Shown piece by piece: positions 16,359 through 59,670 of a DNA stretch of 64,000 nucleotides (its first letter is position 1; each line of letters begins with the position of its first letter). Origin of the DNA: Burkholderiales bacterium (GTDB taxonomy: Bacteria > Pseudomonadota > Gammaproteobacteria > Burkholderiales > Ga0077523); contig JALHMS010000006.1 of the NCBI GenBank assembly GCA_022843925.1, positions 1 through 64,000 on the forward strand, given 5' to 3'. Below the pieces are notes generated by a model, which worked only from the letters and a program-made list of their open reading frames with translations, did not search any database and was not told where the DNA came from. Position numbers and translations under genes: made by a program.

Positions 16359-17326
16359 GTCCGTACCGACTACTGTCGCCCGGCGGTGCAACGGCCAAGC
16401 TGGATATCTTCATTTTTCATCGGGTGTATCCGAGCATCGATCCGTTGGCTCCGGGCGAACCCGATGTGGCGCGCTTCGAGCGGTTGATCCGCTTCCTCTC
16501 CGTGGCATGCACCCTGCTGCCGCTCGCCGAGGCTGGCGATCGCCTCGCAGCAGGCACTCTGCCCGCCGCAGCTGCCTGCATCACATTCGACGATGGCTAT
16601 GCGGACAACCTGACGCTTGCCGCGCCGATCCTCGCGCGGTTCAATGCGCCCGCCACGATTTTCGTCGCCACGGGATACCTCGACGGGGGGCGGATGTGGA
16701 ACGACACGGTGATCGAGTCGATCCGCAGCACTTCGGCCGACAGGCTGGACCTCGGGGACCTCGGGCTGCCTGTCGTAGAGTTGACGACGATCGAACAGAG
16801 GCGCGAGGCGATCGGCATGCTGCTGCCCCTGATCAAGTACCGCTCCGTGGAGGAGCGAATCTTCCTGTCCGACGCAATCGCGCGCCGGGCCCGTGTGACC
16901 CCTCCTTCCGACCTGATGCTGACCACTCCCCGAATGCGCGAACTCGCGGCCGCCAGGAATATCACCATCGGAGCGCACACCAGGCGTCATCCGATCCTCG
17001 CCTCTGCTCCTTCCGATGAGGCCCAAGCAGAAATTTCGGGTTCTCGCACAGATCTCGAGGCCATACTGCAGAGGGGCGTGGATCTGTTTGCCTATCCCAA
17101 TGGGCGCCCCGACAAGGACTACCGGGCCGAGCATGTGGAAATGGTGCGGAAGGCAGGTTTCCGCTACGCCGTGAGTACGGCTCAGGGGGTGGCATCCGCA
17201 CCGGCGGATCCACTGCAGTTGCCACGGTTCACGCCGTGGGGCGAAACGCTTCCGAAGTTCAGCCTCCAGTTGGCGCGCGCCCTCTGGCGAGCCCCGGCAT
17301 CCCGGACGCTCCAGGTGGCTGCATGA
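16343..17326 (+). CDS. Polysaccharide deacetylase (NodB-type)
   Basis: Carbohydrate esterase family 4 protein of 327 residues that would remove N- or O-acetyl groups from the polysaccharide or a precursor. Visible NodB motifs are ITFDDGYADN (catalytic Asp and first metal Asp), GAHTRRHPIL (metal histidines) and FAYPNGRPDKDY. No signal peptide is evident, so it may act in the cytoplasm or at the membrane face. I placed the start at the GTG at 16343 because GGGAG lies five bases upstream; another GTG at 16337 is possible. Its stop overlaps the asparagine-synthase-like gene by ATGA. It differs from the usual XrtA deacetylase, which begins with an IDVED-type motif. Confidence 0.83.
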   Translation: MAARLSPYRLLSPGGATAKLDIFIFHRVYPSIDPLAPGEPDVARFERLIRFLSVACTLLPLAEAGDRLAAGTLPAAAACITFDDGYADNLTLAAPILARFNAPATIFVATGYLDGGRMWNDTVIESIRSTSADRLDLGDLGLPVVELTTIEQRREAIGMLLPLIKYRSVEERIFLSDAIARRARVTPPSDLMLTTPRMRELAAARNITIGAHTRRHPILASAPSDEAQAEISGSRTDLEAILQRGVDLFAYPNGRPDKDYRAEHVEMVRKAGFRYAVSTAQGVASAPADPLQLPRFTPWGETLPKFSLQLARALWRAPASRTLQVAA

Positions 17327-19164
17327 GCCGAGTCCGTCTGATCGGGATTGCGACCAGCGATCCATCGCTGTCCACGATGCTTCGGGAGGTTGCGGGTACT
17401 GGAGAGGCCCCTGCGGCGGGATGCGCGCATCGGATGTGCGCGTCCACTGCCTGGATGGATGCATCGTCGGCGCCTCAGCTGCAGGCCCACCAAGATGACG
17501 CAGGCTTCTGCGTGGCTATCGGCGTACCGCGCCTCCGCGGTGCAGCCCCCGGGATGCGTCTGACGGCCTCGGAACTGCTGTCCTCATACCATAGCGATGG
17601 CAGCGGAATGCTCCAACGGATGGCGGGAGGGTTCGCATTCGTTGCCCACGACGCGACGACCGGTCGGACGATCATGGCCGTGGATCGCTTCGGCATCTAT
17701 CCGCTTGCCTATCGACTTCTGGACAATGCCGTGGTGATTGGTCGATTTGCCGACGAAGTGGCGGGTCTGTTGCCGAACGGCAGCGCTCTGGATCTGCAGT
17801 CGCTCTTCGACTATCTGTACTTTCACGTGATTCCGGCGCCAGCCACCGTCTACAAGACCGTCCGGAGGCTCGAGGCAGCCCAGTACGGCGAATTTGCTGA
17901 CGGAAGGTTCGAAGTCAAGCGCTACTGGCAGCCCGATTACACCCAGCGGCTTGGGGAATCCAGGGAAAAGCTCATTGCCGAGTTCCGGGATCTGATGCGC
18001 GAGAGTGTGGCCCGCGAAGCCGATGCCGAGGGTACTGCGAGCTTCCTGAGTGGAGGGACTGACAGTTCCACCGTGACTGGTTGGCTGGGCAAGACCAGCG
18101 GAAAGCCTGCTCCCTGCTACTCCATCGGATTCGATGCCGAGGGCTACGACGAGATGGCCTATGCGCGTATCGCGGCGAAGCATTTCGGTGCCGATCACCA
18201 CGAGTACTACGTGACGCCCTCGGACATCGTGCGAGGGGTGCCGCTCGTGGCGCAACGGTATGACCAACCCTTCGGAAATTCTTCCGCACTGCCGGGTTTT
18301 TCCTGCGCCGGCATGGCTGCACAGGATGGCGTCCGGATCCTGCTGGCGGGTGACGGCGGAGACGAGATCTTCGGCGGAAACACCCGCTACGCGAAACAGA
18401 AGGTGTTCGAATGGTACGAGCGGGTGCCGGTGCCAGTGCGCCGGGCTTTCCTGGAGCCCATCCTTCTCGGACCGATGCGCAACCTGCCGTTGCTGCGCAA
18501 GGCTGCGAGCTATATCGAGCAGGCGAAGCTCGGACTGCCCGCGCGCCTCGAAACCTACAATCTCGTGCACCGACTCGGTGTGGAGAACATGCTGACCCCC
18601 ATGTTCGCAGGTGCGATTCTTCAGGGGGCGCCGGCGCTGCAGCAAAAGGAGGTCTACGATCGTTGCCGTGACCCAGCGATCGTGAATCAGCTGCTTGCTT
18701 ACGACCTCAAGTACACCTTGGCCGATACCGACCTTCCGAAGGTCGTCCACACCGCGGAGCTGGCAGGGTGTGAAGTCCGGTTCCCGATGTTGGCGGACGA
18801 ACTGGTCGATTTCGCCAATGCGCTCCCGCCGGACTACAAGGTGAAGGGGGTCGAGCTGAGGCATTTCTTCAAGGAGGCTTCCACTGGGTTTCTGCCGAAC
18901 GAGATTCTGACGAAGGCCAAGCACGGGTTCGGTCTACCCTTTGGTGCGTGGGTACTCAAGGATCCGGAACTGCAGCGCTTTTCGCGGGCAAGCCTGCTGT
19001 CGCTTGTCGAGAGAAAGATCATTCGCACCGAGTTCGCAGCCGATGTTTTCGCAACCAAGTTGCCTGCACATCCAGGCTTCTACGGGGAGGTCATCTGGAT
19101 CCTGATGCTCCTCGAACAATGGCTCCGTTCGCACGCCTCCGATTTCACCGTTGATGCGGTGTAG
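17323..19164 (+). CDS. Asparagine-synthase-like protein lacking the glutaminase cysteine
   Basis: Two-domain protein of 613 residues built like AsnB: an N-terminal class II amidotransferase-like domain (AVDRFGIYPLAYR recognisable) and a C-terminal ATP-pyrophosphatase synthetase domain with SFLSGGTDSSTV (about residues 240-250) and LLAGDGGDEIFGG. It begins MSRVRLIG, with no Cys2, so glutamine hydrolysis should be absent. In that it resembles lasso-peptide cyclases (McjC type) and some polysaccharide-locus homologs rather than true asparagine synthetase. It overlaps the deacetylase by four bases and is the last gene of that operon. The following PqqD/HprK-like/nucleotidyltransferase genes recall lasso clusters. 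Amidation of a uronic acid in the polysaccharide is the main alternative role. Confidence 0.85.
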   Translation: MSRVRLIGIATSDPSLSTMLREVAGTGEAPAAGCAHRMCASTAWMDASSAPQLQAHQDDAGFCVAIGVPRLRGAAPGMRLTASELLSSYHSDGSGMLQRMAGGFAFVAHDATTGRTIMAVDRFGIYPLAYRLLDNAVVIGRFADEVAGLLPNGSALDLQSLFDYLYFHVIPAPATVYKTVRRLEAAQYGEFADGRFEVKRYWQPDYTQRLGESREKLIAEFRDLMRESVAREADAEGTASFLSGGTDSSTVTGWLGKTSGKPAPCYSIGFDAEGYDEMAYARIAAKHFGADHHEYYVTPSDIVRGVPLVAQRYDQPFGNSSALPGFSCAGMAAQDGVRILLAGDGGDEIFGGNTRYAKQKVFEWYERVPVPVRRAFLEPILLGPMRNLPLLRKAASYIEQAKLGLPARLETYNLVHRLGVENMLTPMFAGAILQGAPALQQKEVYDRCRDPAIVNQLLAYDLKYTLADTDLPKVVHTAELAGCEVRFPMLADELVDFANALPPDYKVKGVELRHFFKEASTGFLPNEILTKAKHGFGLPFGAWVLKDPELQRFSRASLLSLVERKIIRTEFAADVFATKLPAHPGFYGEVIWILMLLEQWLRSHASDFTVDAV

Positions 19165-19328
19165 CGACGATCGATGCTTTTACCGACAGAGTGGGGGGCT
19201 GAACGATCTACGGCCCGGCCTCCGGTCACTTCCGCTTCTGTCGATTCGATTTACAGCTCTTCCAGAGAAGGCGTTTCAACCGCGACAGAATGTCAGAATT
19301 CTCAAGATGTTAGATATTCTCGAAGACT

Positions 19329-19344
19329 TGGTACTCGAATTGCT
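19329..19344 (+). promoter_or_regulatory. Sigma-54 type promoter upstream of the Tat-protein/HPr-rel-A genes
   Basis: TGGTACTCGAATTGCT: GG-N10-GC spacing is exact, with TGG-AC at -24 and TTGCT at -12. It lies about 50 bases before the ATG at 19395. It would drive the Tat-signal protein, the PqqD-like protein, the kinase and the nucleotidyltransferase. The AT-rich stretch just upstream (19295-19325) is unusual for this region. Confidence 0.62.
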
Positions 19345-19394
19345 CTCTCGGCAGTATCCTAGTGTTGTTGAAGTTCGTCCCGGGGTCCAAGTAC

Positions 19395-19877
19395 ATGAGT
19401 GATGAAACGAAATCCCGACGTAGGTTCCTGAGTGGCGGTGCCGCAGCGCCATTCATCATGACAGTTCATCCCGGGTCCGTACTTGCGGCTTCCAGCACCT
19501 CCTGCTTCGTGAATGGCGGCAAGCAACCCACCCCGGTGCTTTTCACCGAAGGGGTCGCGCCGGATACGGACGTATGGCAGAGGTACAGCGTTGAGTTGCT
19601 GACGATCAAGGACGGCACCACCGACCTGCCGGGGTCCTACTTCAAGCCGCTTCCTGGACATACGGGTGTCTACTGGAAGTTTGTTTCGAACGACGTTGCC
19701 CCCACCATCACGACCTACGCGGTAGATGGCGTCAATTTGACGGTCACGAGAACCAACGTGTTCAAGCAAGCCCTCGTTCTGGTGGACAGCTCAGGAGCAC
19801 TGGCGGGCTTCCATTGGGAATCCGGCATCGCTGGAAGCAAGATCACAAAGTCCTGCTACACATCATTCAAGCCCTGA
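19395..19877 (+). CDS. Small Tat-exported protein of unknown function
   Basis: A 160-residue protein I do not recognise. The N-terminus KSRRRFLSGGAAAPFIMTV is a twin-arginine signal with the SRRRFL core and an Ala-rich segment ending near VLAAS, so a mature exported domain of about 125 residues is likely. The mature part has two cysteines (SCFVNGG near its start and KSCYTSFKP at the very end) that could form a disulphide closing the domain, and it looks beta-rich. The ATG at 19395 was chosen because the Tat motif follows it directly; the frame is open 11 codons upstream. It stands first after a sigma-54 type promoter and before the PqqD-like gene, in the place where a RiPP precursor would be expected. 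Confidence 0.72.
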   Translation: MSDETKSRRRFLSGGAAAPFIMTVHPGSVLAASSTSCFVNGGKQPTPVLFTEGVAPDTDVWQRYSVELLTIKDGTTDLPGSYFKPLPGHTGVYWKFVSNDVAPTITTYAVDGVNLTVTRTNVFKQALVLVDSSGALAGFHWESGIAGSKITKSCYTSFKP

Positions 19878-19930
19878 ATTGGTTCCCAGAGATGGACTAG
19901 GCGGGTCGGCCAACGGCGACGCATACATCC

Positions 19931-20215
19931 GTGTCAGCTCGAGTTCGCGATGGCCTCTGGAACTCCGTTGACCCCCTCGGTCGACGGATTGCAAGATTTG
20001 GCGACCACTGCATGGTCTTCAACCCCGTTTCATGGGAGACGCACTTCGCTTCCGCCCATGCAGCTGATGTGCTTGAACTGATCGGCGAGAGAACGGTTAC
20101 CTTGGAAGACTTGGAACACGCGCTCCTCGGGGCCGGCGCCAACCCCGAGGAGTCGCGCGAGTTTGCTGCACTTCTGGTCAGTCTCGAGGAACTTGGCCTG
20201 ATCAGGGCGCTTTGA
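19931..20215 (+). CDS. HPr-rel-A system PqqD-family peptide chaperone
   Basis: Small protein of 94 residues with the PqqD/RRE-like fold pattern: a winged-helix N-terminal half (IARFGDHCMVFNPVSWETHF) and C-terminal helices ending LLVSLEELGLIRAL. PqqD-like domains bind leader peptides of ribosomally made, modified peptides. This one matches the subgroup named after its partner, HprK-related kinase A. The start is a GTG at 19931. It ends three bases before the kinase start, so the two are almost certainly co-translated. In lasso clusters the equivalent protein is B1. No peptide substrate is evident nearby except possibly the upstream Tat-signal protein. Confidence 0.8.
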   Translation: MSARVRDGLWNSVDPLGRRIARFGDHCMVFNPVSWETHFASAHAADVLELIGERTVTLEDLEHALLGAGANPEESREFAALLVSLEELGLIRAL

Positions 20216-20218
20216 GGC

Positions 20219-21163
20219 ATGACAGCCTTGGCAGTGGCGCCCGCTCCAGATATCGCCAGAGTGCTCCGTGAGGATGGTCTGGTACTGGATCTCGGAGCGG
20301 CCAGATTCAGGGTGCGGTCAGACGTCGATGAGCTCGTCGCGCCACTTGTTTCGGTTTACGGCTGCTTCCCATTCGAGTTCTCGCCGGGCTTCTGCGACGT
20401 GACCGCCAGCGTGCTAAGGGTGCGGGGACTGAGGCGCCACCTCAGGCCACAGGTGGAATTCGTCGTGGATGGTGAGTCTCCGTTCGAGCCCTTTCCGGCT
20501 TCAGTGCATCTGCCTCTGCTGGAATGGGGTCTCAACTTCTCCTTCACCGAGCGTTGCACCCACTATCTTTTGTTGCATTCAGGAACCGTGGAGCGCAACG
20601 GCGTGGGTATCGTCATGCCAGCGGTTCCAGGTTCTGGAAAGAGCACGCTGACCGCAGGAATGGTCGGTAGCGGGCGGTTCCGCCTGTTGTCCGACGAGTT
20701 CGGCGTTTTGTCCCTCGAGACGGGGTTGCTGAAGCCTCTGCCGAGGCCGATTGCCCTGAAAAATGCCTCCATCGACGTGATTCGCTCCCGCTTTCCGAAC
20801 GTGGCACTGGGTCCGGTGTTTCATGGGACCCGGAAAGGGGATGTCGCTCATATGGCGGCTGACCAAGCGACCGTCGCTGCCATCCATGCTGCCGTTCGGC
20901 CAGGCATTGTGTTGTTCCCGAAGTACCAGGCGGGCGCTGCTCTGTCCGTCGAAGCAATCGATCCAGCGCAGGCATTCAGTAAATTGACGGTGAATTCCTT
21001 CAACTACGAGTTGCTTGGTGCGGCCGCTTTCGATGCGATCCATGCCTTAGTCCGAAGTTGTGTCTGCAGACGTCTCGTCTTCGGAGACCTTGATCAGGCC
21101 ATCCGAGCCATCGAGATGTTGGTCGATGATATCGGTGCGGGCCGCGTCTCTGCCGGAGAGTGA
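20219..21163 (+). CDS. HprK-related kinase A
   Basis: Distant homolog of HPr kinase/phosphorylase, 314 residues. The P-loop is MPAVPGSGKSTLTAG, about residues 135-150, with LLSDEFGVLSLE about 25 residues further on, as in HprK. The N-terminal 100 residues lack the HprK N-terminal domain and are specific to this family. It follows the PqqD-like gene by three bases and is followed by a nucleotidyltransferase gene. In kinase-bearing lasso clusters such as the paeninodin type, an HprK-like enzyme phosphorylates the peptide C-terminus; for the XrtA-linked HPr-rel-A set no target has been established to my knowledge. The target here could be the Tat-signal protein or another peptide. Confidence 0.85.
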   Translation: MTALAVAPAPDIARVLREDGLVLDLGAARFRVRSDVDELVAPLVSVYGCFPFEFSPGFCDVTASVLRVRGLRRHLRPQVEFVVDGESPFEPFPASVHLPLLEWGLNFSFTERCTHYLLLHSGTVERNGVGIVMPAVPGSGKSTLTAGMVGSGRFRLLSDEFGVLSLETGLLKPLPRPIALKNASIDVIRSRFPNVALGPVFHGTRKGDVAHMAADQATVAAIHAAVRPGIVLFPKYQAGAALSVEAIDPAQAFSKLTVNSFNYELLGAAAFDAIHALVRSCVCRRLVFGDLDQAIRAIEMLVDDIGAGRVSAGE

Positions 21164-21227
21164 CCAGGGATCCCTCGGATTGACCGGTGGTGTACGGTCT
21201 TCGACGGCCCCGCCGATAGAATGGCGC

Positions 21228-22349
21228 ATGACCATCCTTCCGCCGCCTCCCCACCTCCAAAAACTGATCAGGCTCCTTGTCGAGCCCGACTCCGCCAATA
21301 ATCTCAACAGCGACGACTGGGACCTCGTGGTGCGGGTCGCTGGCCGAGCGAAACTTCTCGGCACGCTTCACGGCCGTCTTGCGCAAGCGGGTGTCCTTGG
21401 GGCTGTCCCGAAGGCACCCCGTCGGCACCTTGCGGGAGCCCATGCCTTCTATCTCCACCGGGCTCAGATGGCGAGGTACCTCCTGCTCGGTCTGACGCGT
21501 GCCTTCGATGCGATGCCTGAGAAACTCGTGCTGCTCAAGGGCGCTGCGTATGTCGCGCAGGGCATTCCTTTCTCCGTGGGGCGGATGTTCGATGACGTAG
21601 ACCTGATGGTGAGCCGGGGCGTCCTCGACGATGTGGAGTCCCGGCTCCACGAGGCCGGTTGGCTGAGCGAGAAGCCGGATGCCTACGATCAGCACTACTA
21701 CCGCGCGTGGGCGCACGAACTGCCCCCGATGCGGCATCCGCGGTTCCTGTTGCAACTGGACGTGCACCACACGATTCTGCCTGTGACCGGACGCCTCAGG
21801 CCCGACGCCGCCAAGCTGATGGAAGCCGCTGTTCCGATCCCTGGGGGGCCATGGTGTGCGTTGTCGCCGGCAGATCAGGTGCTCCATGTCGCCGTGCATT
21901 TGTTTCAGGATTCGGACTGCGTGGATCGTTTCAGAGAACTGGTGGATGTCGACGCGCTGATTCGAGCCTACGGGGGCAGAACACTCGATAACGCCCTTCC
22001 GAACCATGCCGCGATACATGGCCTGGGCCGGCCACTCTGGTACGCGCTGCGGTATGCGCGGGCATGGCTGGGCACCCCCGTGTCCCCGGAGTTGGCCCTT
22101 GCGGTCGATGCATTTGCCCCGCCTGTGATCGTCCAGCGCACCATGGACACACTGGTGCATCGGGCACTTTTCCCGCGGCATCCCGATGGCCGGCCTCCCC
22201 GGCGTTCGCCCGTCTCCCACCGCTTCCTTGCGGCGCGCGCTGTGTGGCTTCGAATGCCGCCCTGGCTTCTGGCGTACCACGCGACCATGAAGAGCCTTCG
22301 GAGCGCGCGTAGGCGCCCTGCCATTGAAGATCCTGGCGACCGACAATGA
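21228..22349 (+). CDS. Nucleotidyltransferase-family protein of the HPr-rel-A cluster
   Basis: A 373-residue member of the uncharacterised nucleotidyltransferase family (PF14907 type). The core is LVLLKGAAYVAQG followed by GRMFDDVDLMV, where the DDxD triad would bind metal, and LQLDVHHTI supplies a third acidic/histidine cluster. It starts 65 bases after the kinase stop, with ATG at 21228. The same family occurs beside HprK-like kinases in some lasso-peptide clusters and beside asparagine-synthase-like proteins in exopolysaccharide loci. It could transfer a nucleotide or sugar phosphate to the same substrate as the kinase; that is inference. Confidence 0.8.
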   Translation: MTILPPPPHLQKLIRLLVEPDSANNLNSDDWDLVVRVAGRAKLLGTLHGRLAQAGVLGAVPKAPRRHLAGAHAFYLHRAQMARYLLLGLTRAFDAMPEKLVLLKGAAYVAQGIPFSVGRMFDDVDLMVSRGVLDDVESRLHEAGWLSEKPDAYDQHYYRAWAHELPPMRHPRFLLQLDVHHTILPVTGRLRPDAAKLMEAAVPIPGGPWCALSPADQVLHVAVHLFQDSDCVDRFRELVDVDALIRAYGGRTLDNALPNHAAIHGLGRPLWYALRYARAWLGTPVSPELALAVDAFAPPVIVQRTMDTLVHRALFPRHPDGRPPRRSPVSHRFLAARAVWLRMPPWLLAYHATMKSLRSARRRPAIEDPGDRQ

Positions 22350-22745
22350 TGTCGTCGGCTTCTTCGGGTGGTGTCGCAGACGCGCCCAAATCCGTCCTCA
22401 AGTGCCGAACTCTGGAAGTCTTCGCCAAGGCCTCGCGGCGCCTCGAGGTATGGGCCGAAGCCGATCGGAATGACGTGAGACCCAACGGATTCCCGACCTA
22501 TCCCGGCTCTGATCGTTACACCAACTTGCTGGAGTCCGATCGGTTCCGAGCGTTGGTCCCAGGCGGGCAGTGGCGAGGCGCCTCTCCGAGGTCTGGACGG
22601 GCGGATAGCCCTTGTCGTGCCTTTCTCGTCATCGCTTGATCTCTCTTCACGCCAAACGTTGGCGGGCACTGTGCTCGCTTATGAGCCAACGGAGACATTC
22701 CGGCGGGCACTGACTCGCTGGTGGCGCTGAGCGAGGTGTGACGGC
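22350..22745 (+). other. Intergenic region before the sugar transferase
   Basis: About 400 bases. A rightward open frame (22346-22639, 97 codons) overlaps the nucleotidyltransferase stop as ATGA, but its product has no recognisable motif and reads like non-coding DNA. The clearest element is the sigma-54 type promoter at 22660-22675. I see nothing else. Confidence 0.45.
22660..22675 (+). promoter_or_regulatory. Sigma-54 type promoter upstream of the sugar transferase
   Basis: TGGCGGGCACTGTGCT has GG-N10-GC spacing, TGGC at -24 and TGC at -12. The predicted start is near 22686, about 60 bases before the sugar transferase ATG. Transcription could continue into prsK-prsR. Confidence 0.5.
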
Positions 22746-24131: not shown

Positions 24132-24325
24132 CGAGGCGCAACGCGGGACGCAGCCAGAAGCCCGGGCGTTGCCGAGCACGATTCTTGGTTGTGCTCTGAG
24201 CTCGTCGATCTGCCCGATGCCATCGATGCCCGGGATCCGCCGTTCGCGGTGATCACTGCTTGCACTGGCTGGAGGCGGAGAATTTCCGCGAATCAACTCA
24301 GGGCCCACAGGAACTCGCGCCACCC

Positions 24326-26440
24326 ATGACGGCTTCCACTGCCGCAATTGCCGTTGCCAGCTATGGATTCGGAGCTGCGGCCTATGCCGTGCTTGCCATT
24401 CAGATCGGTATCCGGCGCGGCTGGACCGGACGCTCAGGCGTAATGCTGTTCGCGGCACTGTCTTCGCTACTGTGGCAGGTTTCCGGCGTCGTCGTGGCGG
24501 TTGCACCGAGCGATGCCTCATGGTTGCTTCATCTATTGGCCGACGGTCTGCGATTCGGTGCCTGGTTCGGCTTCGTCCTCGCGTTGCTGCAGTCCGTGCA
24601 GGTCCCCGGCTTCACCCTCGCCTTGTCCGGCCGGCTGCGGTTCGTCCTCACATCGTCCCTCGTGCTCGGGCACTGGATCGCAACCGTCGCGGGCGGCTTC
24701 GATCTGTTCGCCGGTGTCGCCAGACCCATGCAACGGCTGATGCCGAGTTTCGGCGTTTCCGCTATCGCGGCGGTAATCGGGCTCAGCCTCTGTGAGCAGC
24801 TGTATCGCGGAACCAAGGAAGCTGCCCGGTGGGGCATCAAGCCGCTGGTGCTGGGGCTGGGCGCAATGCTCGGCTACGATCTCTTCATGTTTTCCGATGC
24901 GCTCCTGCTGCGTGGTGTCGACGAACAGGTCTGGACGGTACGCGGCGCGGTTCACGCACTCGCGATCCCGTTGATCCTCGTGGCGACGGCGCGCAATCGA
25001 GACTGGACCATCGATATCGCTGTTTCGCGGAACATCGTATTCGGTTCCACGGCCCTGCTGTTGTCCGGACTCTACATGCTGGCCGTGGCCGGTGCTGGTT
25101 ACTACGTCCGGATCTTCGGTGGTGACTGGGGGCGAGCCATCCAGTCGATCTTTCTCTTCATCGCCCTGCTGGTCCTTGCGCTCCTGTTTTTTTCCGGATC
25201 CGTACGAGCGCGCATCCGCGTTTTCATCAACAAGAACTTCTTCTCCTATCGGTACGATTACCGGGAGGAGTGGCTCCGATTCACCAAGATGCTCGCTACG
25301 AACTCGAACGCGGAGAGCATCGTTGAACGGTCCATCCAGGCATTGGGAGACCTGGTGGAGAGCCCTGGAGGCCTCCAGTGGTGGCGCGATGGCGACGGGG
25401 CCTATCGGCCTGCGGGGCGTTGGAATGCGCCGGCCATGGCCAGTTCGATCACGGCCGAGGCATCCTTGGTTCGTTTCCTCGCTGCAACCTCGTGGGTGAT
25501 CGATCTGGAAGAGTTCCGCACGAATCCGGAGCGGTATCCGGATCTGGAATTGCCGCTCTGGTTGCAGGAGTGGTCGGAAGCATGGCTCATCATTCCGATG
25601 CCTGAGGGTGACGGACTGGGCGGGTTCGTCGTGCTTCAGTTGCCCAGGGCGAAAGTGGAGATCGACTGGGAGGTGCTGGATCTCCTCAAGACAGCTGCCC
25701 GACAGGCCGCTACTGTCATCGGGCAAGTACGGGCAACCGAGGCCTTGGTGGAAGCGCAGCAATTCAGCGCCTTCAACCGCATGTCGGCATTCGTTGTGCA
25801 TGATCTGAAGAATCTCGTCGCGCAGTTGTCCCTCATGCTGAAGAACGCGGAGCGCCACAGTGCGAATCCCGAGTTTCAGAAGGACATGCGATCCACGATC
25901 GAGCATGTGGTGGATCGCATGAACCGCCTGCTTCTGCAGCTGCGTTCCGGAGCGGCTCCCATTGGAAGTCCAACCCCCGTGGACATCGGCGCGGTGATGA
26001 CGCGGATCAAGACCGCGTACGCCCGTCAGGGCAGGAGCGTCGTGCTGGAGGTTTCGGACGGGGTCTGGGCGATGGCGCACGACGAGAGGATCGAGCGCGT
26101 GCTCGGGCACCTGGTGCAGAACGCGTTCGATGCGATGGAGGGTCGCGGTGAAGTGATCGTCCGGGTTTCGAAGGATGGATCGCATGCCGTCGCCGAGGTG
26201 GAGGACAAGGGAAAGGGCATGTCGAGCGAGTTCATCCGTGAGCAGCTCTTCAAGCCGTTCCGGTCGACCAAGTCGACGGGCATGGGCATAGGTGCCTACG
26301 AGAGCCAACAGTACGTGAGCGAGCTCGGAGGCCGCATTGCCGTGGAAAGCACGGTAGGGGTGGGCACTCGGATGAAGGTGATCCTGCCCGCACGTTCCAG
26401 GGATATTGCATCGGACGAGAGCCGCGCGGAAGCCGCATGA
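24326..26440 (+). CDS. prsK: XrtA/PEP-CTERM system sensor histidine kinase PrsK
   Basis: Membrane histidine kinase of 704 residues. About eight hydrophobic segments occupy the first 300 residues, a GAF-like sensor region follows, and then the kinase core: FVVHDLKNLVAQL with the phosphorylated His near residue 492, the N-box LVQNAFDAMEGRG, and the G-boxes DKGKGMSSEFI and STGMGIGAYESQQ. The architecture and HDLKNL motif fit PrsK of exosortase A systems. The ATG at 24326 was preferred to the frame start 22 codons upstream because MTASTAAIAVASYGFG begins the first membrane segment. The stop overlaps prsR by four bases (ATGA). It probably controls surface-protein and polysaccharide genes through PrsR. 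Confidence 0.94.
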   Translation: MTASTAAIAVASYGFGAAAYAVLAIQIGIRRGWTGRSGVMLFAALSSLLWQVSGVVVAVAPSDASWLLHLLADGLRFGAWFGFVLALLQSVQVPGFTLALSGRLRFVLTSSLVLGHWIATVAGGFDLFAGVARPMQRLMPSFGVSAIAAVIGLSLCEQLYRGTKEAARWGIKPLVLGLGAMLGYDLFMFSDALLLRGVDEQVWTVRGAVHALAIPLILVATARNRDWTIDIAVSRNIVFGSTALLLSGLYMLAVAGAGYYVRIFGGDWGRAIQSIFLFIALLVLALLFFSGSVRARIRVFINKNFFSYRYDYREEWLRFTKMLATNSNAESIVERSIQALGDLVESPGGLQWWRDGDGAYRPAGRWNAPAMASSITAEASLVRFLAATSWVIDLEEFRTNPERYPDLELPLWLQEWSEAWLIIPMPEGDGLGGFVVLQLPRAKVEIDWEVLDLLKTAARQAATVIGQVRATEALVEAQQFSAFNRMSAFVVHDLKNLVAQLSLMLKNAERHSANPEFQKDMRSTIEHVVDRMNRLLLQLRSGAAPIGSPTPVDIGAVMTRIKTAYARQGRSVVLEVSDGVWAMAHDERIERVLGHLVQNAFDAMEGRGEVIVRVSKDGSHAVAEVEDKGKGMSSEFIREQLFKPFRSTKSTGMGIGAYESQQYVSELGGRIAVESTVGVGTRMKVILPARSRDIASDESRAEAA

Positions 26441-27792
26441 CAGAAAAGCGCAAGCCATTGCTGGTAGTCGAGGACGATCCCGCGCTGCAGAAGCAGATGC
26501 AGTGGGCACTCGATCAATACGAGGTCCTCGTTGCCGATGATCGCGATTCGGCCATCGCACAGTTGCGGCGATTCGAACCTGCCGTCATCACCATGGACCT
26601 CGGTCTGCCGCCGCATCCGGACGACACGACGACGGGCTTCAAGCTGCTCCAGGAGATGATGTCCCTGTCGCCGGATTCGAAGGTGATCGTCATCACGGGC
26701 CAGCACGATCGCGACAACGCCGTACGCTCCATCGCACTGGGCGCCTACGATTTCTGCGAGAAGCCGTTCCAGCCGGAAGTTCTCTCTCTGATCATCGAAC
26801 GCGCGTTTCGGTTGTACGAACTGCAGGCGGAGAACCGGCGCCTGCAAAACGCCCAGTCGGCGCCAGGCGTCTCGGGCATCATCTCCCGGGATCCGGAGAT
26901 GCAGCGGCTCTGCAGGACGATCGAGAAGGTGGCAAGCACCAATGCCACAATCCTTCTGCTCGGCGAGTCGGGGACCGGCAAGGAGGTACTCGCGCGCGCT
27001 CTGCACTCGCATTCCCCGCGGAAGGGCAACCGGTTCGTCGCCATCAACTGCGCCGCGATTCCGGAGAACCTGCTCGAGAGCGAGCTGTTCGGTTACGAGA
27101 AGGGGGCATTCACCGGTGCCGCGAAGCAGACGCCGGGCAAGATCGAAGTGGCCAATGGTGGCACCCTCTTCCTGGACGAAACGGGCGACCTGCCGCTTTC
27201 GCTGCAGGCGAAGCTGCTGCGATTCCTGCAAGAGCGGGTGATCGAGCGGATCGGCGGTCGCGAAGAGATCCCGGTGGACGTCAGGATCGTCTGCGCGACG
27301 CATCAGGATCTGAAAAACCTGATCGCCAACGGCAAGTTCCGTGAGGACCTCTTCTACCGGCTCGCCGAGATCGTTCTGGAGATCCCCCCGCTTCGGCAAC
27401 GGAAGGGCGACGCGAGTCTCCTGGCGCATGCGTTCGTTCGCCGATTCGCCGACGAACAGAAAGCCGGAACGCTCACGATGTTGCCGGACGCTGTCGACGC
27501 CATCGAAGCCTATGACTGGCCGGGCAACGTCCGAGAGCTCGAGAACCGGACGAAGCGCGCCGTGATCATGGCAGAGGGTTCCACCCTCCGGGTCGAGGAC
27601 TTCGGATTGCAGGCCGTGGCGCCCGAGCCCGAGATGTTCAACCTCCGACGTGCGCGCGACGAGGCAGAGCGAGAGGCGATCGTGCGCGTTCTCGGCCGGG
27701 TCAACGGCAACATCAGCAAAGCCGCAGAGCTCCTCGGGGTCAGTCGTCCGACGTTGTACGACCTCATGTCGAAGTACAGCCTGCGTTCTTAG
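26437..27792 (+). CDS. prsR: PEP-CTERM-box response regulator PrsR (sigma-54 activator)
   Basis: NtrC-class activator of 451 residues. Receiver domain: LLVVEDDPALQ with the phosphorylated Asp in TMDLGLPPHPDD, and K in CEKPF. AAA+ domain: Walker A GESGTGKEVLAR, the GAFTGA loop that contacts sigma-54, and TLFLDETGDL Walker B. The C-terminal Fis-type helix-turn-helix is ISKAAELLGVSRPTLYDLM. It overlaps prsK, its likely kinase. It would activate RpoN-dependent promoters; six sites of that form are seen in this window upstream of XrtA genes, PEP-CTERM genes and a FeeM gene. In flocculating betaproteobacteria PrsK/PrsR with RpoN is reported to control PEP-CTERM genes. Confidence 0.95.
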   Translation: MTEKRKPLLVVEDDPALQKQMQWALDQYEVLVADDRDSAIAQLRRFEPAVITMDLGLPPHPDDTTTGFKLLQEMMSLSPDSKVIVITGQHDRDNAVRSIALGAYDFCEKPFQPEVLSLIIERAFRLYELQAENRRLQNAQSAPGVSGIISRDPEMQRLCRTIEKVASTNATILLLGESGTGKEVLARALHSHSPRKGNRFVAINCAAIPENLLESELFGYEKGAFTGAAKQTPGKIEVANGGTLFLDETGDLPLSLQAKLLRFLQERVIERIGGREEIPVDVRIVCATHQDLKNLIANGKFREDLFYRLAEIVLEIPPLRQRKGDASLLAHAFVRRFADEQKAGTLTMLPDAVDAIEAYDWPGNVRELENRTKRAVIMAEGSTLRVEDFGLQAVAPEPEMFNLRRARDEAEREAIVRVLGRVNGNISKAAELLGVSRPTLYDLMSKYSLRS

Positions 27793-27837: not shown

Positions 27838-30660
27838 ATGCTCAACAGCTCGTATCCGAGTAGCGCAATGAGGTCGATGAAGATGCTGGCTCAGCGTGTC
27901 GGGTCCTTCCGCCTGCGCGATCTGGTCGTACTGGCGGTTCTCGCCGGCTGTAGCGGGGGCGAGTCTTCCGAGGATTTCGCTGCGTCCGGCAGGAAGCTGC
28001 TCGATGCCGGCGATACCGCAGGGGCCGTCATCCAGTTCAAGAACGCCCTGCAGAAGCAGCCCGACAGCGGTGAGATCCGGTACCTCCTGGGATCGGCACT
28101 CCAGCGTTCGGGCAGTCCCCAGCAAGCAGTTGTCGAGTACCGGAAGGCGATCGATCTGGGGTACGACGCCGCGAAACTGCGTCCGGATCTGCTGGCGGCG
28201 CTCTTGGCAAGTGGTGAGTTCGCAGCCGTGGTGATCGATGCCGTGACAGACGGCATCTCGGATCCCTCCGCGAAAGCCCAGGTGCTGGCACTTGCCGGTG
28301 ATGCGCTCATCGCGCTTGGTCGCCGAGACGAGGCAATCGCCAGCTACGGCGAGGCTGCGGAGCTTGATCCGAGCAGCGAGGGCGCCGGCATCGGCCAGGT
28401 GACCCTGGCGCTCACTTCGGGGGACGTTCCCAGGGCGAAGGCGCTGCTCGAGGAACTCGTCGCGGCGCATCCTGCCTCGACAAGAGGACAGCTGCTTCTC
28501 GGAGGACTGCTCGTACAGACGGGGGATGTTCCAGGGGCAACCAAGGTCTTCGATGCGGTGATTGCCCTCCACCCCACCGATGCGCGTGCTTACCTTGCCG
28601 TGATCCCCGCCCTGATTGGCGTTCATGACATTGCCGGTGCAACAGCGCGATTGGCAAAGCTGGAGGCATCTTCTCCGAACGCGATCGCGACAACCTATCT
28701 GAAAGCCTTGATCGCGTACTCGGAGGGCAGGAGGGAGGCGGCGCGCGACCTTGTTCGACTTGTCGTTAAGGTGGCGCCGGACGACATGCGTAGCCTGTTG
28801 CTGGCCGGCTCCGTGGAGTTCGATCTCGGGAACTACGTTCTTGCAGAGCAGCGCCTTTCCAAGCTCGTGGCGCAGAGTTCCGCCAGCCCCTATGCGCGTC
28901 GACTGCTTGCCACAACTCGGATGCGGCTTGGTCAGACAGACAAGGCGTGGGAGGCGATCGCTCCTGTGGTGGAGCTCAGGGATGCCGATGCGCCGTCCCT
29001 TCTGATTGCAGGGCAGATAGCCGAGGCGCGGTCCGATCGGAAGGCTGCGCTCGATTTCGCCAGGCGTGCAGTGGAACTCGAACCGAAGTCCGCCACGTAT
29101 CGAACGGCCCTTGGTCAGATGCAGCTCCGCGCCGGTGACCGCGAGGCGGGCATCGCGTCGCTCAAGGCCGCGATCTCGGCAGACCCGCAGCAGGCCTCGG
29201 GGGACACGGCACTGATTGCGTATCTACTGCAGACCGACCGTAAGCGTGAAGCCATGGACGTGGCTGAAGCTCTCGTGAGGCGATTGCCGGACAGCGCGGC
29301 GGCCCATGGTGCACTCGGCGGTGCGCTTCTCGTTGGCGGCGCAGAAGCCAAGGCGCGGCAAGAGTTCGAAAAGGCACTCGCGATAGACCCGGCGTTCGAG
29401 GATGCTGCCAGGAACTTGGCGCAGTTGAAGGCTCGGGACGGGGATCTGGATGCTGCGCAGCGTCTCCTCGAAGGGGTGCTCTCGAAGCAACCGGCATCAG
29501 AGCTTTCCGCTCTTCTACTGGCGGTTCTTCAAGCACGTTCAGGCGCAAAATCCGAGGTTGTCTTGGCGACTCTCGACAAATTGATCGCCGCAGCGCCCGC
29601 GTCCGAACGTGCCCGCATTGCGAAGCTGCAGTACCTGCTCGAGCAGAAGCGCGTGCGCGAGGCATCCGAGTTCGTCCGCGGCGCGTTGGCAGATATGCCC
29701 GAAAGCAACGCAATGCTCCAGTGGTTGGCCCGTGTCCAGTTGATCGCCAACGAGCCTGCTCAGGCCGTGACGACCTACGGGAAGCTGAGTCAACGCATGC
29801 CGCAGTCGGCAGCCCCGCTTCTCGGACTCGTGGCAGCGCACACCAAGGAGAAGAACTGGACGGCCGCATTGGACGCGGCCAGAAGGGCCGTGGCCATCGC
29901 CCCCGATAGTCCCGAGGTACACCTGGTTCTTGCATCGGTCTATACCGACGCAGGGAAGTCTGTCGAAGCGCGCGCCGCCACGAAGGAACTCCAGAGAAGA
30001 TGGCCGAAGCGCCCCGACGGTTACGCTGCAGAGGCGAGAGTCCTGATCACCGAGAAGAACAGTGCAGAGGCCGAGCGGATTCTGCGTGCGGGCGTCAGCG
30101 CCACAGGTGACGACTCTCTCGTTGATGCGCTGTACGAAGTGATCGCGCAGTCCGGCAGGATCCAGGAAGCCGAAAGCTTTGGACAAGGTTGGCTTGCGTC
30201 GCATCCGAAGGCAGCGAGGGTTGCGCTCCGGATTGCAGATTCCCGGCTGCGCGTTGCCGATCACGCGCGCGCGGAGGCCTGGTACCGGAAAGCCGCTGCC
30301 ATCGAGCCCGACAACGCGGTCGTCCTGAACAATTGGGCGTGGGTGCTGGGAAAGCTGAAGGACGATCGCGCTCTCGATGTGGGTCGACGTGCAATCGAGA
30401 AGGCGCCCAACAACGCGGCGGTGCTGGATACGGTCGGCATGCTCTATGCTGAACACGGCGACCCCGTCAAAGGGATCGAGTATCTGCAGAAGGCATTGAG
30501 GCTCGGCGGGCCGTCGCACGGGCTCCGCCTGAACATGGCGCGCGCCTTTTCACTTGCCGGCAAGAAGGACGAAGCCCGCGCCGAGCTGGATGCGGCAGCT
30601 AAGGACGCGAAGACGGATGCCGAGAAGCGGGAGATCGATGAATTGCGCCGAACGATATAG
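27838..30660 (+). CDS. prsT: XrtA/PEP-CTERM system TPR-repeat lipoprotein PrsT
   Basis: Large TPR protein of up to 940 residues. The N-terminus is a lipoprotein signal (LVVLAVLAGC with the lipid-modified Cys), and the rest is a continuous run of 34-residue tetratricopeptide repeats such as AGAVIQFKNALQKQPDSGEI and ASGDTALIAYLLQTDRKREA. The length and the start pattern (FAASGRKLLDAGDTAGAVIQ) fit PrsT. Three starts are possible (27838, 27868, 27877); none has a strong ribosome site, and I give the longest. It follows prsR by 45 bases. It probably scaffolds polysaccharide export or surface-protein assembly on the periplasmic face of a membrane. Two more proteins of this kind occur in the window. 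Confidence 0.92.
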   Translation: MLNSSYPSSAMRSMKMLAQRVGSFRLRDLVVLAVLAGCSGGESSEDFAASGRKLLDAGDTAGAVIQFKNALQKQPDSGEIRYLLGSALQRSGSPQQAVVEYRKAIDLGYDAAKLRPDLLAALLASGEFAAVVIDAVTDGISDPSAKAQVLALAGDALIALGRRDEAIASYGEAAELDPSSEGAGIGQVTLALTSGDVPRAKALLEELVAAHPASTRGQLLLGGLLVQTGDVPGATKVFDAVIALHPTDARAYLAVIPALIGVHDIAGATARLAKLEASSPNAIATTYLKALIAYSEGRREAARDLVRLVVKVAPDDMRSLLLAGSVEFDLGNYVLAEQRLSKLVAQSSASPYARRLLATTRMRLGQTDKAWEAIAPVVELRDADAPSLLIAGQIAEARSDRKAALDFARRAVELEPKSATYRTALGQMQLRAGDREAGIASLKAAISADPQQASGDTALIAYLLQTDRKREAMDVAEALVRRLPDSAAAHGALGGALLVGGAEAKARQEFEKALAIDPAFEDAARNLAQLKARDGDLDAAQRLLEGVLSKQPASELSALLLAVLQARSGAKSEVVLATLDKLIAAAPASERARIAKLQYLLEQKRVREASEFVRGALADMPESNAMLQWLARVQLIANEPAQAVTTYGKLSQRMPQSAAPLLGLVAAHTKEKNWTAALDAARRAVAIAPDSPEVHLVLASVYTDAGKSVEARAATKELQRRWPKRPDGYAAEARVLITEKNSAEAERILRAGVSATGDDSLVDALYEVIAQSGRIQEAESFGQGWLASHPKAARVALRIADSRLRVADHARAEAWYRKAAAIEPDNAVVLNNWAWVLGKLKDDRALDVGRRAIEKAPNNAAVLDTVGMLYAEHGDPVKGIEYLQKALRLGGPSHGLRLNMARAFSLAGKKDEARAELDAAAKDAKTDAEKREIDELRRTI

Positions 30661-41974: not shown

Positions 41975-42736
41975 GTGACTCACGTTTACTCGAGGACATC
42001 TGCGCCTGCGCAAACGGTCGCTGAGATTTCTGGTTTTCAGCCGGAATTGACATGCGCTCCGGGGGTAGGGCTCAGACCTGAACACTTAGGGAACGAGTTT
42101 GGATTTGCGCGCATCGACGTCGTGATTGCCGAGACGGTCGGCGACTACTCCGCGGCGACGCAACTACTTGCCCAACGGTACGTCCCGAAGGGCTACTCCT
42201 TCGAGGGGGGGCTCCAAGGCTCGGTCTCCTGCGTCGATCCAGTCCTGATTGCAAAGAATCGATTGGACGGTTCGGCGCTGGCGACCTTGACCTTGCGGGT
42301 TGACGGCCCGCGCGGCCTGATGGCCGAGCATCTCTACACGGAGGAGGTCGCCAGACTTCGCTCGGATGGGTGCCGACTATGCGAGGTCGTCCGGTTCGCA
42401 TCCTTGCCGTCCATCCGATCTTTCGAATTGCTGCGTCGTTTGTTTGATCGGGCATTCGACCTCGGCCGGCAACTGGATCGTTCGGACGTGCTGATCGAAG
42501 TGACGCCGAGACATGCTGCCTTCTACAAGCGCGTTCTGGGATTCCGAGCTGTTGGAAGCCCGTGCCACAACCCCCGCGTCAACACGGTCGGGACATTGTT
42601 GCATGTGAAGATGGACGAGCTTGGCGAGCGGGTGGAGCGCGTTGCGCCGAGGGAATTGGACTTGTTGCCTCGCAACGACGGATCGATCTTCCCCAGCGCT
42701 GGCCGACTCGATCACGCGGCGCAATTTGCGGGCTGA
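41975..42736 (+). CDS. FeeM-type N-acyl amino acid synthase (second copy)
   Basis: Acyltransferase-like protein of 253 residues, paralogous to the preceding gene: RLCEVVRFASLPSI, LIEVTPRHAAFYKRVLGF and HNPRVNTVGTLLHVKM correspond block for block. The N-terminal 35 residues differ. The start is a GTG at 41975 preceded by AGGAGA at six bases, the clearest ribosome site in this area. The ThiF-like gene follows after 81 bases. The two copies might use different amino acids or acyl chains, or act as a heterodimer; neither can be read from the sequence. Confidence 0.85.
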   Translation: MTHVYSRTSAPAQTVAEISGFQPELTCAPGVGLRPEHLGNEFGFARIDVVIAETVGDYSAATQLLAQRYVPKGYSFEGGLQGSVSCVDPVLIAKNRLDGSALATLTLRVDGPRGLMAEHLYTEEVARLRSDGCRLCEVVRFASLPSIRSFELLRRLFDRAFDLGRQLDRSDVLIEVTPRHAAFYKRVLGFRAVGSPCHNPRVNTVGTLLHVKMDELGERVERVAPRELDLLPRNDGSIFPSAGRLDHAAQFAG

Positions 42737-43690: not shown

Positions 43691-43903
43691 CCGGCGAACT
43701 CGTGACCACCACCAGGACGCTTCGACATGGCGCTGCACCGGGGCCCTGTGCCGGCGCACTTCCTGGGGATCAATCGCACGATGCGTCCCATGAGGGGCAT
43801 AGCGTCGCGTTTCCTTACAACGCCTTGCGGACGTGACCTCGACGCATCTCGAGGACGATTTTTAATTCATATAAAACAGTCACATGAGGTGGCGCTGCGG
43901 GCC

Positions 43904-43919
43904 TGGTACGGCAAATGCT
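43904..43919 (+). promoter_or_regulatory. Sigma-54 type promoter of the first PEP-CTERM gene
   Basis: TGGTACGGCAAATGCT: GG-N10-GC exact, TGG-ACG at -24 and TGCT at -12. The start would be near 43930, some 45 bases before the ATG. An AT-rich block (43859-43880) just upstream may hold activator sites. Confidence 0.65.
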
Positions 43920-58598: not shown

Positions 58599-58682
58599 GC
58601 CGTGTCGAGCGTATTGACGTTCCGACGGGGGCGCGCCGGGCGCGAGCGCGCAACGAGCTGATTAGAAGAGAATAAACCTGCC

Positions 58683-58698
58683 TGGTCCGACTGTTGCT
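58683..58698 (+). promoter_or_regulatory. Sigma-54 type promoter of the second PEP-CTERM gene
   Basis: TGGTCCGACTGTTGCT: GG-N10-GC exact, with TGG at -24 and TTGCT at -12. The start would be near 58709, about 45 bases before the TTG start codon, almost the same geometry as the first PEP-CTERM gene. Confidence 0.65.
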
Positions 58699-58755
58699 GT
58701 GTGGCGACACCAACGGCTGAAAAGCCCATGCAGACTGGACATCAGGGGATACGAA

Positions 58756-59670
58756 TTGAAAAAGCAAATGCTTTGGTTCGCCTTGGCGGCGATTGGTAGC
58801 GGCGCAGGGCTCTCCGCCCAGGCGGCCACGACTTGGACCTTCGATGTGCCGCCGCCGGCGAACGCGCCGTGCACGAGTTCGGGGACCAGTGCCGGCAATT
58901 TCGTCCAGTGCACGCCGAATGGCGGTGGCGCGCCGAAAGTGGTGGCCACCGCCTGGGCGAACACGACCGGTCTGCAGACCTGGACCACCGACACGACGGG
59001 TGCAGCGCTTCAGACGGGGACGGTGATGGTGTACGCCAATTCTGACGGCAGCACCGTCGGACTTGGCGTTCGCAACCAGTCGGCGGCGGACTCCGGTGAG
59101 GGCACCTCCCCCGAGCACGCCTTCGACAACAATTTCCGGAACAGGTCGGACACCAACAACACGATCGCCTCTTCGGCCGCCGTCTACGACTCGATCCTGT
59201 TGTCTTTCGACACTGCGGTGGCACTCACGGGCATCACCGTCGGCTGGATCAGGTACGACGCCGATATCACGGTCTCCGCCTACCTGGGCGTCGGGACCCC
59301 GACGTTGGCCGGTCGGACCTACGGTCAGCTGACTGGTGACGGTTGGTCTTACGTCGAGCATGAGGCCAATCTGACGTCGGGCACGCAGCGGCTGATCAAT
59401 GGGGCCACCGGTTCGGCGGACGGCGTGAGTGCTGCCACCGTGACGTCCAGGCACTGGATGATCAGTGCTTACAACCCGATCCGCGGTGGTGACACGAGCA
59501 TTTCGGGGCTCAACGTCGGCAACGATTATTTCAAGCTGATGTCCGTTGCCGCCGCCAGTTCCAGCCCGCCGGCGCCCGGTGGAGTTCCGGAACCCGCAGC
59601 GATTTCTCTGATTGGCGTTGCTGTGCTGGGTGCGGCTGCGACGCGTCGCCGCAAGGGTTCTGCCGGCTGA
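58756..59670 (+). CDS. PEP-CTERM sorting-domain surface protein (second)
   Basis: Exported protein of 304 residues. Signal peptide: MLWFALAAIGSGAGLSAQA, cut before ATTWTF. The mature domain is Thr/Ser/Gly-rich and probably beta-sandwich (VYDSILLSFDTAVALTGITV); it resembles exosortase-dependent surface proteins of the XDP1 kind, which I cannot confirm. The C-terminus is GVPEPAAISLIGVAVLG, then ATRRRKG, a standard PEP-CTERM signal. I chose the TTG at 58756 because AGGGGA lies six bases upstream. It has its own sigma-54 type promoter and a terminator follows. Confidence 0.88.
   Translation: MKKQMLWFALAAIGSGAGLSAQAATTWTFDVPPPANAPCTSSGTSAGNFVQCTPNGGGAPKVVATAWANTTGLQTWTTDTTGAALQTGTVMVYANSDGSTVGLGVRNQSAADSGEGTSPEHAFDNNFRNRSDTNNTIASSAAVYDSILLSFDTAVALTGITVGWIRYDADITVSAYLGVGTPTLAGRTYGQLTGDGWSYVEHEANLTSGTQRLINGATGSADGVSAATVTSRHWMISAYNPIRGGDTSISGLNVGNDYFKLMSVAAASSSPPAPGGVPEPAAISLIGVAVLGAAATRRRKGSAG

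Follow-up and report, generated by a model that had tools for sequence, protein, structure and literature searches.

A twin-arginine leader protein as candidate substrate of the HPr-rel-A kinase set in exosortase-associated loci

The locus

This article concerns a small gene in a 64,000-nucleotide stretch of DNA from a Burkholderiales bacterium (GenBank assembly GCA_022843925.1, contig JALHMS010000006.1, positions 1 to 64,000 of the forward strand), which we call the window. The gene lies upstream of those for a PqqD-like protein, a kinase related to HPr kinases and a nucleotidyltransferase-like protein of family PF14907 (NTP5), and we have come to regard its product as the probable target of the kinase. 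EXP is our working name for the small leader-bearing protein gene upstream of the kinase, here and in other genomes. The window's EXP begins MSDETKSRRRFLSGGAAAPFIMTVHPGSVLA and ends KITKSCYTSFKP. It matched no Pfam or NCBIfam family, and the EXP proteins of both classes (A and B, described below) that were scanned gave only weak single matches in these databases. The genes and elements at the center of the argument are these.

19395–19877, + strand: EXP, 160 residues, class B, with a twin-arginine leader; the open reading frame between the synthase and PqqD-like genes and the proposed substrate
19410–19493, + strand: twin-arginine leader of EXP, KSRRRFLSGGAAAPFIMTVHPGSVLA..., the best match in its genome to a leader model made from class A only (E 2.4e-6)
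19854–19868, + strand: C-terminal motif C-Y-T-S-F of EXP (within the end KSCYTSFKP), its serine the proposed phosphate acceptor
19931–20215, + strand: PqqD-like protein, TIGR04353 (45.5 bits, cut-off 35), proposed to bind the EXP leader
20219–21163, + strand: HprK-related kinase A, TIGR04352 (333 bits, cut-off 200)
about 21228–22349 (start codon uncertain), + strand: PF14907 nucleotidyltransferase-like protein, NTP5 (165 bits, cut-off 31.2), proposed to add a sugar or nucleotide to the phosphate

The gaps between these four genes are 53, 3 and about 64 nt. A sequence-only reading of the window had seen an asparagine-synthase-like protein, the PqqD-like protein, the kinase and the PF14907 protein lying in a row. 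All four families are where that reading placed them, the last three above their cut-offs and the synthase through PF00733. The row itself is broken, with a 230-nt intergenic region and EXP separating the synthase from the PqqD-like gene. The same reading had proposed looking across genomes for a conserved short reading frame; EXP is such a frame, but its genomic companion is the kinase, not the synthase.

Loci compared and the tie to the kinase

Kinase loci were drawn from three samples of genomes. The class sample holds 369 genomes of the window's class, 41 with the TIGR04352 kinase. Our first set consists of the window, the 40 other class-sample kinase loci and three named loci, from which L046 was excluded (its contig starts about 600 nt before the kinase), giving 43 loci and 43 EXP. 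The fetched loci L033–L075, also 43, are counted separately from the window. In the phylum sample the kinase occurs in 62 of 398 genomes, which yielded 56 new loci with flanks of about 4 kb; this sample omits G524 (two fragments) and G400 (under the cut-off). The order sample (kinase in 32 of 200 genomes) gave 27 new loci, and predictions for it were fixed before the loci were read.

An EXP with a twin-arginine leader stands upstream of the kinase at all 43 first-set loci. EXP was likewise found upstream of the kinase at 48 of the 56 phylum-sample loci and, as a prediction set beforehand, at 23 of the 27 order-sample loci (20 by script and three, L191, L202 and L208, by reading). EXP was placed by hand-picked strings at eleven first-set loci and at L126, L146, L154, L165 and L174, and script picks at L140, L149 and L180 were thrown out as not EXP. 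We scored L162 as a miss though its kinase sits at a contig end, and L140 as a miss since the EXP-like gene there is on the opposite strand. That gene (minus strand, frame from about 5103 of the reverse strand) encodes an EXP-like protein with a leader and an SCWTSF end, and does not lie upstream of the kinase. A crude rule for twin-arginine translocation (Tat) signals was passed by 28 of the 43 first-set EXP, against 17 of 582 other long open reading frames at the same loci. A near relative, the Betaproteobacteria metagenome-assembled genome Ga0077532 (L033), also has EXP, 68% identical and with the gene order unchanged.

EXP also appears to follow the kinase in inheritance. A tree of 84 kinases needs a single change of EXP class (support 97/87, with bootstrap values not fully settled), compared with a mean of about 27 changes when labels are shuffled; L125, L141 and L168 were labeled class A by hand, and the order sample stands outside the tree. 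A class A model located such a protein within the kinase locus of every one of 12 positive genomes, all of which had gone into building it. In 38 genomes positive for exosortase A (XrtA) and negative for the kinase, it found no full-length class A protein and one marginal partial match (E 7e-4). A second class A-like stretch, away from the kinase, lies in a 401-residue open frame of G296 (contig C20, about 42075–42596). At L043, L070, L071, L075 and L165 a gene resembling, by eye, a trypsin-type serine protease lies upstream of EXP; its product could process the EXP product outside the cytoplasm.

Two classes of EXP

EXP proteins range from 74 to 287 residues and fall into two classes in the first set, class A with 30 of the 43 and class B with 13, the window's among them. 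The class A alignment has 29 rows, L052 being omitted as a near copy of L051. Its consensus is C-T-x-S-G-x-x-S-G-N-x-S ... C-x-G-x-[ST]-P-G-Y-W-K ... L-x-x-H-x-V-A-A-x-L-N-A, or in short "SGN...C.G.SPGYWK...LNA", and three residues of the mature part, a Cys, a Ser and an Asn, are invariant across the 29 rows. A structure predicted from the 29 sequences has a mean predicted local distance difference test (pLDDT) score of 74 and a predicted template modeling (pTM) score of 0.65, with a helical C-terminal domain. The pLDDT falls below 50 at residues 56–64, a stretch that opens with the invariant Ser, and on this model the chain after that Ser is probably flexible.

Class B proteins have a variable middle and an end that is similar across members, often [ST]-C-[WFY]-x-S-[FLI]. 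The smallest, L067 at 74 residues, has little beyond leader and motif. A motif C..S[FLIV] occurs within the last 30 residues of 39 of the 42 phylum-sample proteins outside class A (0.65 in shuffles), and in 15 of 18 phylum-sample genera when one protein is taken per genus (shuffle mean 0.29). An earlier expression, [CGAS].[TNA]S[FILA], had matched 12 of 12 first-set tails (1.4 in shuffles) and 6 of the 18 phylum-sample genera; it was too narrow and was replaced.

The leaders of the two classes appear alike from their sequences, although the mature parts are dissimilar. The twin-arginine motif is RR throughout the 13 class B members and (R/K)R throughout the class A alignment of 29. A model based on 20 class A leaders, searched against the window's genome, ranked the class B leader of EXP first, the next match having an E of 0.013. 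Across the genomes of the 12 other class B members the model found EXP in 8 (E 9e-7 to 0.036), as the top match in 7. It matched nothing in the PDB. One class B member matched the Pfam family TAT_signal (E 0.002), and NCBIfam Tat models weakly.

A predicted promoter of the PEP-CTERM kind

The intergenic region between the synthase and EXP carries a pair of promoter-like sites.

19239–19255, + strand: motif 1 of a PEP-CTERM box, a predicted PrsR site, TGTCGATTCGATTTACA, 10 of 10 specified bases
19329–19343, + strand: sigma-54 –24/–12 site, TGGTACTCGAATTGC, 9 of 10 specified bases

As excerpts of Haft 2006 (PMC1569441) have it, the PEP-CTERM box precedes PEP-CTERM genes of proteobacteria and consists of a 17-nt motif that ends in TTTACA and, after a spacer of 32–92 nt, a sigma-54 site, with the start codon 23–221 nt further on; the excerpts name PrsR as the likely activator. 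An excerpt of PMC9850573 reports an RpoN-dependent PEP-CTERM gene. By these sequence criteria the sites before EXP agree with the published definition. The spacer between them is 73 nt, and 51 nt separate the end of the sigma-54 site from the EXP ATG. Motif 1 at 19239 is the sole match of at least 9 of 10 bases on either strand of the 64-kb window. The sigma-54 site alone is not significant (one match with at most one mismatch in the window, 4.66 expected), so the weight rests on its pairing with motif 1, the spacing and the position.

Paired boxes of this kind precede 32 of the 43 first-set EXP; among 2460 segments picked at random from those loci, 14 carry one. In the order sample they precede 18 of 23, in a test stated in advance (15 by script and L191, L202 and L208 by reading); L215 falls outside with a spacer of 96. 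The phylum sample gave 7 of 48 (background 18 of 2708), and within it 7 of the 9 EXP belonging to the window's class. In three related loci, L038, L040 and L041, a palindrome-like TGTAA(A/G)G...CTTTACA replaces the usual PrsR motif before the sigma-54 site.

The presumed regulators, and two further boxes with the genes that follow them, lie elsewhere in the window.

24260–26440, + strand: histidine kinase PrsK (TIGR02916), which presumably regulates the EXP promoter
26437–27792, + strand: PrsR, response regulator of the PEP-CTERM box, TIGR02915, by profile match
27838–30660, + strand: PrsT, a TPR protein, TIGR02917, by profile match
43803–43918, + strand: second, weaker paired box, upstream of a gene ending at 44904 (probable start 43975) whose product shows, by eye, a PEP-CTERM tail
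58603–58697, + strand: third, weaker paired box, before the XDP1 open frame
58699–59670 (real start probably slightly further on), + strand: exosortase-dependent surface protein XDP1, above cut-off

Motif 1, spacer and motif 2 thus stand before EXP in the positions known from the PrsK–PrsR–sigma-54 regulon, as far as the excerpts of PMC1569441 describe it. Unlike the PEP-CTERM proteins of that regulon, EXP has, by eye, no PEP-CTERM tail (PEP motif, membrane helix and basic end).

Part of the earlier description of the window as an exosortase A locus stands. Other XrtA-associated genes are present (TIGR03098, TIGR03099 and EpsB_2). The exosortase itself is not among them: the exosortase A model TIGR03109 matched nothing in the window (other exosortase families were not searched), and its matches in the genome are on contigs C20 (above cut-off) and C21 (below), the window being on C6. 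Across the class sample, XrtA is above cut-off in 35 of the 41 kinase genomes and in 38 of the 328 others.

The three enzymes

TIGR04352, TIGR04353 and PF14907, all above cut-off here, are the families of the HPr-rel-A set, which is likewise found in XrtA-linked genomes; PF14907 as an associate of that set is taken from the sequence-only reading. Within 5.39 million open-access papers (most subscription papers lie outside them), we found no paper naming the HPr-rel-A set or its substrate. What our comparison adds to the set is a nearly constant fourth member, the leader-bearing EXP, and in the window's class a PEP-CTERM-box promoter. TIGR04353 adjoins the kinase in 40 of the 41 class-sample kinase genomes, above cut-off in 32. 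An NTP5 homolog is present in 42 of the 43 fetched loci, the exception being L047, a 4.9-kb contig.

In 37 aligned kinases H120, the P-loop K141, D159, E160 and K181 are invariant. His-Lys-Asp-Asp residues have been reported for lasso-peptide kinases; the fourth, acidic residue in our kinase is E160, not Asp, in all 37 rows, an alignment that holds no lasso kinase. A kinase profile searched against the PDB placed HPr kinase/phosphatases on top (E 3e-4 to 6e-4, over some 50 residues around the P-loop). Sequence searches of the PDB with a single kinase and a single PF14907 protein gave nothing useful. At L137, L147 and L155 an open frame of 574–595 codons, TPR-like by eye, lies between the kinase and PF14907 genes. 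After the window's PF14907 gene comes a 97-residue reading frame (22346–22639), whose match to L033 is confined to its first 30 residues and which is possibly not a gene.

A proposed pathway

EXP is probably a target of the kinase because of its adjacency in dozens of genomes, the match between EXP class and kinase branch, and the PEP-CTERM promoter. We think it reasonably probable that EXP is the substrate of the kinase and the PF14907 protein, that its leader is bound by the PqqD-like protein and that it is exported by Tat as part of the PEP-CTERM and exopolysaccharide (EPS) program. The cassette is best explained as EXP, the PqqD-like protein, HprK_rel_A and the PF14907 protein, with the synthase as a neighbor. 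The sequence-only reading had imagined an exported protein that is chaperoned, phosphorylated and nucleotidylated within the PEP-CTERM system. For this there is now a candidate, EXP, with a regulatory link to that system; the modification steps themselves, like the residue modified, the export by Tat and any function outside the cell, are what we infer.

The pathway would begin with PrsK/PrsR and sigma-54 switching on EXP alongside the PEP-CTERM proteins, and read-through from the EXP promoter would express the three enzymes. The PqqD-like protein would hold the twin-arginine leader in the cytoplasm. The kinase would then phosphorylate a serine. In class B this would be the one in the C-terminal [ST]-C-[WFY]-x-S-[FLI] motif; for class A, a possible target is the invariant serine in the C-T-x-S-G-x-x-S-G-N stretch that follows the leader. 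A hexose or nucleotidyl group would next be placed on the phosphate by the PF14907 protein, much as PsmN is reported to act after PsmK. Tat would carry the modified protein out and signal peptidase would cut the leader, leaving a product that may enter the PEP-CTERM/EPS matrix or serve as a signal.

Two known systems resemble parts of this. Dedicated chaperones of the DmsD/TorD type bind the Tat signals of their substrates. Our proposal likewise has a cytoplasmic protein binding a Tat leader until maturation is complete; it differs in the proposed maturation, by phosphorylation and attachment of a sugar, and in the proposed binder, which belongs to the PqqD family. The other is the kinase-bearing lasso-peptide cluster, which likewise has HPr-kinase-like, nucleotidyltransferase-like and PqqD-like proteins. 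In excerpts on the paeninodin and pseudomycoidin clusters (PadeK/PsmK, PsmN, B1; PMC9266682, PMC8498205, PMC7533575), the modified Ser is at the C-terminus of the precursor. For pseudomycoidin, the excerpted accounts describe phosphorylation by PsmK followed by extension of the phosphate by PsmN (PMC9266682, PMC8498205), and the excerpt of PMC9266682 leaves open whether PsmN itself transfers hexose. Our loci differ from these clusters in having no B2 protease nearby, no constant cyclase and a Tat-type leader rather than that of a ribosomally synthesized and post-translationally modified peptide (RiPP). EXP, at the sizes given above, also carries its Ser a few residues before the end.

Points against, and other readings

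Several observations weigh against EXP as a kinase substrate exported by Tat. No upstream EXP was found at 8 of 56 phylum-sample and 4 of 27 order-sample loci, and the comparison that ties EXP to the presence of the kinase covers class A only. Shared operon inheritance alone could explain why EXP adjoins the kinase and diverges along with it. Class B shows hardly any conservation in its middle part, and classes A and B have no obvious common acceptor residue. The motif C..S[FLIV] was refined after the phylum sample had been seen; in its strict form it is present in 8 of the 13 first-set class B members and absent from 5. Of the 23 order-sample EXP, set against a prediction fixed beforehand, 16 could be assigned: 12 to class A (two of these by reading) and 4 to class B by its strict motif (one of these by reading). 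The misfits are L198, L203 and L214, which have no Cys, L204, L210 and L213, which resemble a variant of class A, and L199, which is neither. (The L199 protein has a long end rich in Ser, Asp and Ala, without the class B motif.) In 4 of the 12 class B genomes the leader model did not find EXP, and G286 had another small Tat-like reading frame with a better score. Use of Tat is deduced from the RR motif. The paired box precedes none of the 39 phylum-sample EXP outside the window's class. Nor did the literature we could reach contain a paper reporting modification, export or binding of EXP.

A second reading makes EXP a partner or regulator. The kinase and PF14907 protein would modify an EPS sugar nucleotide or lipid-linked sugar, and EXP would deliver or sense the product. 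It draws on the strong tie of the kinase to XrtA genomes (35 of 41), the EPS-type genes nearby and the nucleotidyltransferase-like character of the PF14907 protein. What makes us consider it unlikely is that a PqqD-family protein beside a protein of conserved leader and variable mature part resembles a precursor system, and that the C-terminal Ser motif parallels the phosphorylated lasso precursors.

A third would have the kinase as a regulator of the HPr kind, phosphorylating a phosphocarrier to control EPS, with EXP an unrelated hitch-hiker. In its favor, HPr kinase/phosphatases are the nearest solved structures; against it stand the adjacency of EXP in three samples, the single change of class along the kinase tree and the lack of full-length class A EXP in the 38 XrtA-positive, kinase-negative genomes, and we regard it as quite improbable.

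The asparagine-synthase-like neighbor

The last reading is that of a lasso-like RiPP: the synthase would act on a peptide, cyclizing or amidating it, and the kinase and the PF14907 protein would decorate the same peptide. It turns on the gene next to EXP.

17323–19164, + strand: asparagine-synthase-like protein, 613 residues, PF00733 (225 bits, cut-off 21), without an N-terminal MCG(I/L) start

Lasso cyclases are not known to carry the MCG(I/L) glutaminase start, and this protein and ten orthologs lack it. Those ten are the ones readable at the start among 19 fetched, six of them beginning MSGICGW or MGGICGW; with such starts, glutamine need not be the nitrogen donor. A homolog adjoins EXP in the window, in L033 and in L191 of the same genus (58% identity), lies about 6 kb from EXP in L190, also of the same genus (61%), and lies downstream of PF14907 in L054 (43%) and L201 (48%). 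Among XrtA-positive genomes the ortholog is commoner with the kinase (30 of 35) than without it (19 of 38; p 0.0013, kinship ignored).

By profile the protein is below the cut-off of all six NCBIfam models it touched, reaching 96.8 of 525 bits with the lasso cyclase model NF033535 and 229 of 816.9 with the XrtA/PEP-CTERM amidotransferase TIGR03108. Its nearest solved structures by sequence are the hydroxyamidotransferase 7ylz and CarA. A homolog occurs in just 4 of the 43 fetched loci, and none lies within about 6 kb in the same-genus L189. Orthologs (34–47% identity, E 1e-90) are present in 54 of the 369 class-sample genomes, 49 of them XrtA-positive, and in kinase genomes most lie away from the kinase. 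The main genomic partner of the synthase is the XrtA system. In the window the synthase is cut off from the cassette by the promoter sites of EXP. We therefore reject it as a cassette member for most genomes, its orthologs tracking XrtA and being mostly distant from the kinase, and take it to be probably an XrtA-associated neighbor. A more distant synthase (27–34% identity) lies downstream of PF14907 at 20 of the 56 phylum-sample loci, and 17 of these 20 have the MCG(I/L) glutaminase start.

Co-occurrence with a B2-type protease had been suggested as a check on the lasso idea, and the result went the other way. In 69 of the 97 kinase genomes, those covered, PF13471 (E 0.001) was found in 10, above cut-off in 7 and in none near the kinase; the nearest on the same contig is about 317 kb away, and the window's own genome has no match at that E value. 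With no B2 protease nearby and a synthase so inconstant, we rejected lasso cyclization, and the reading as a whole seems to us highly improbable.

What the gene may mean

A bolder form of our proposal is possible, and we hold it tentatively. In it the Tat signal doubles as a RiPP-type leader, held by the PqqD-like protein, while the kinase phosphorylates a serine of EXP and the PF14907 protein glycosylates that phosphate; the resulting phosphoglycoprotein would be exported by Tat, coregulated with PEP-CTERM proteins through sigma-54, and would form a second class of exported partner in exosortase biofilm systems.

For the HPr-rel-A set, the immediate gain is a candidate substrate with a proposed acceptor serine. 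The promoter and the co-occurrence tie EXP to PEP-CTERM/exosortase biofilm and floc formation. If our reading is true, it would explain why a PqqD protein of the RiPP type sits within polysaccharide loci, and lasso-type phosphorylation and glycosylation of the phosphate would no longer be confined to small peptides but would include exported proteins.

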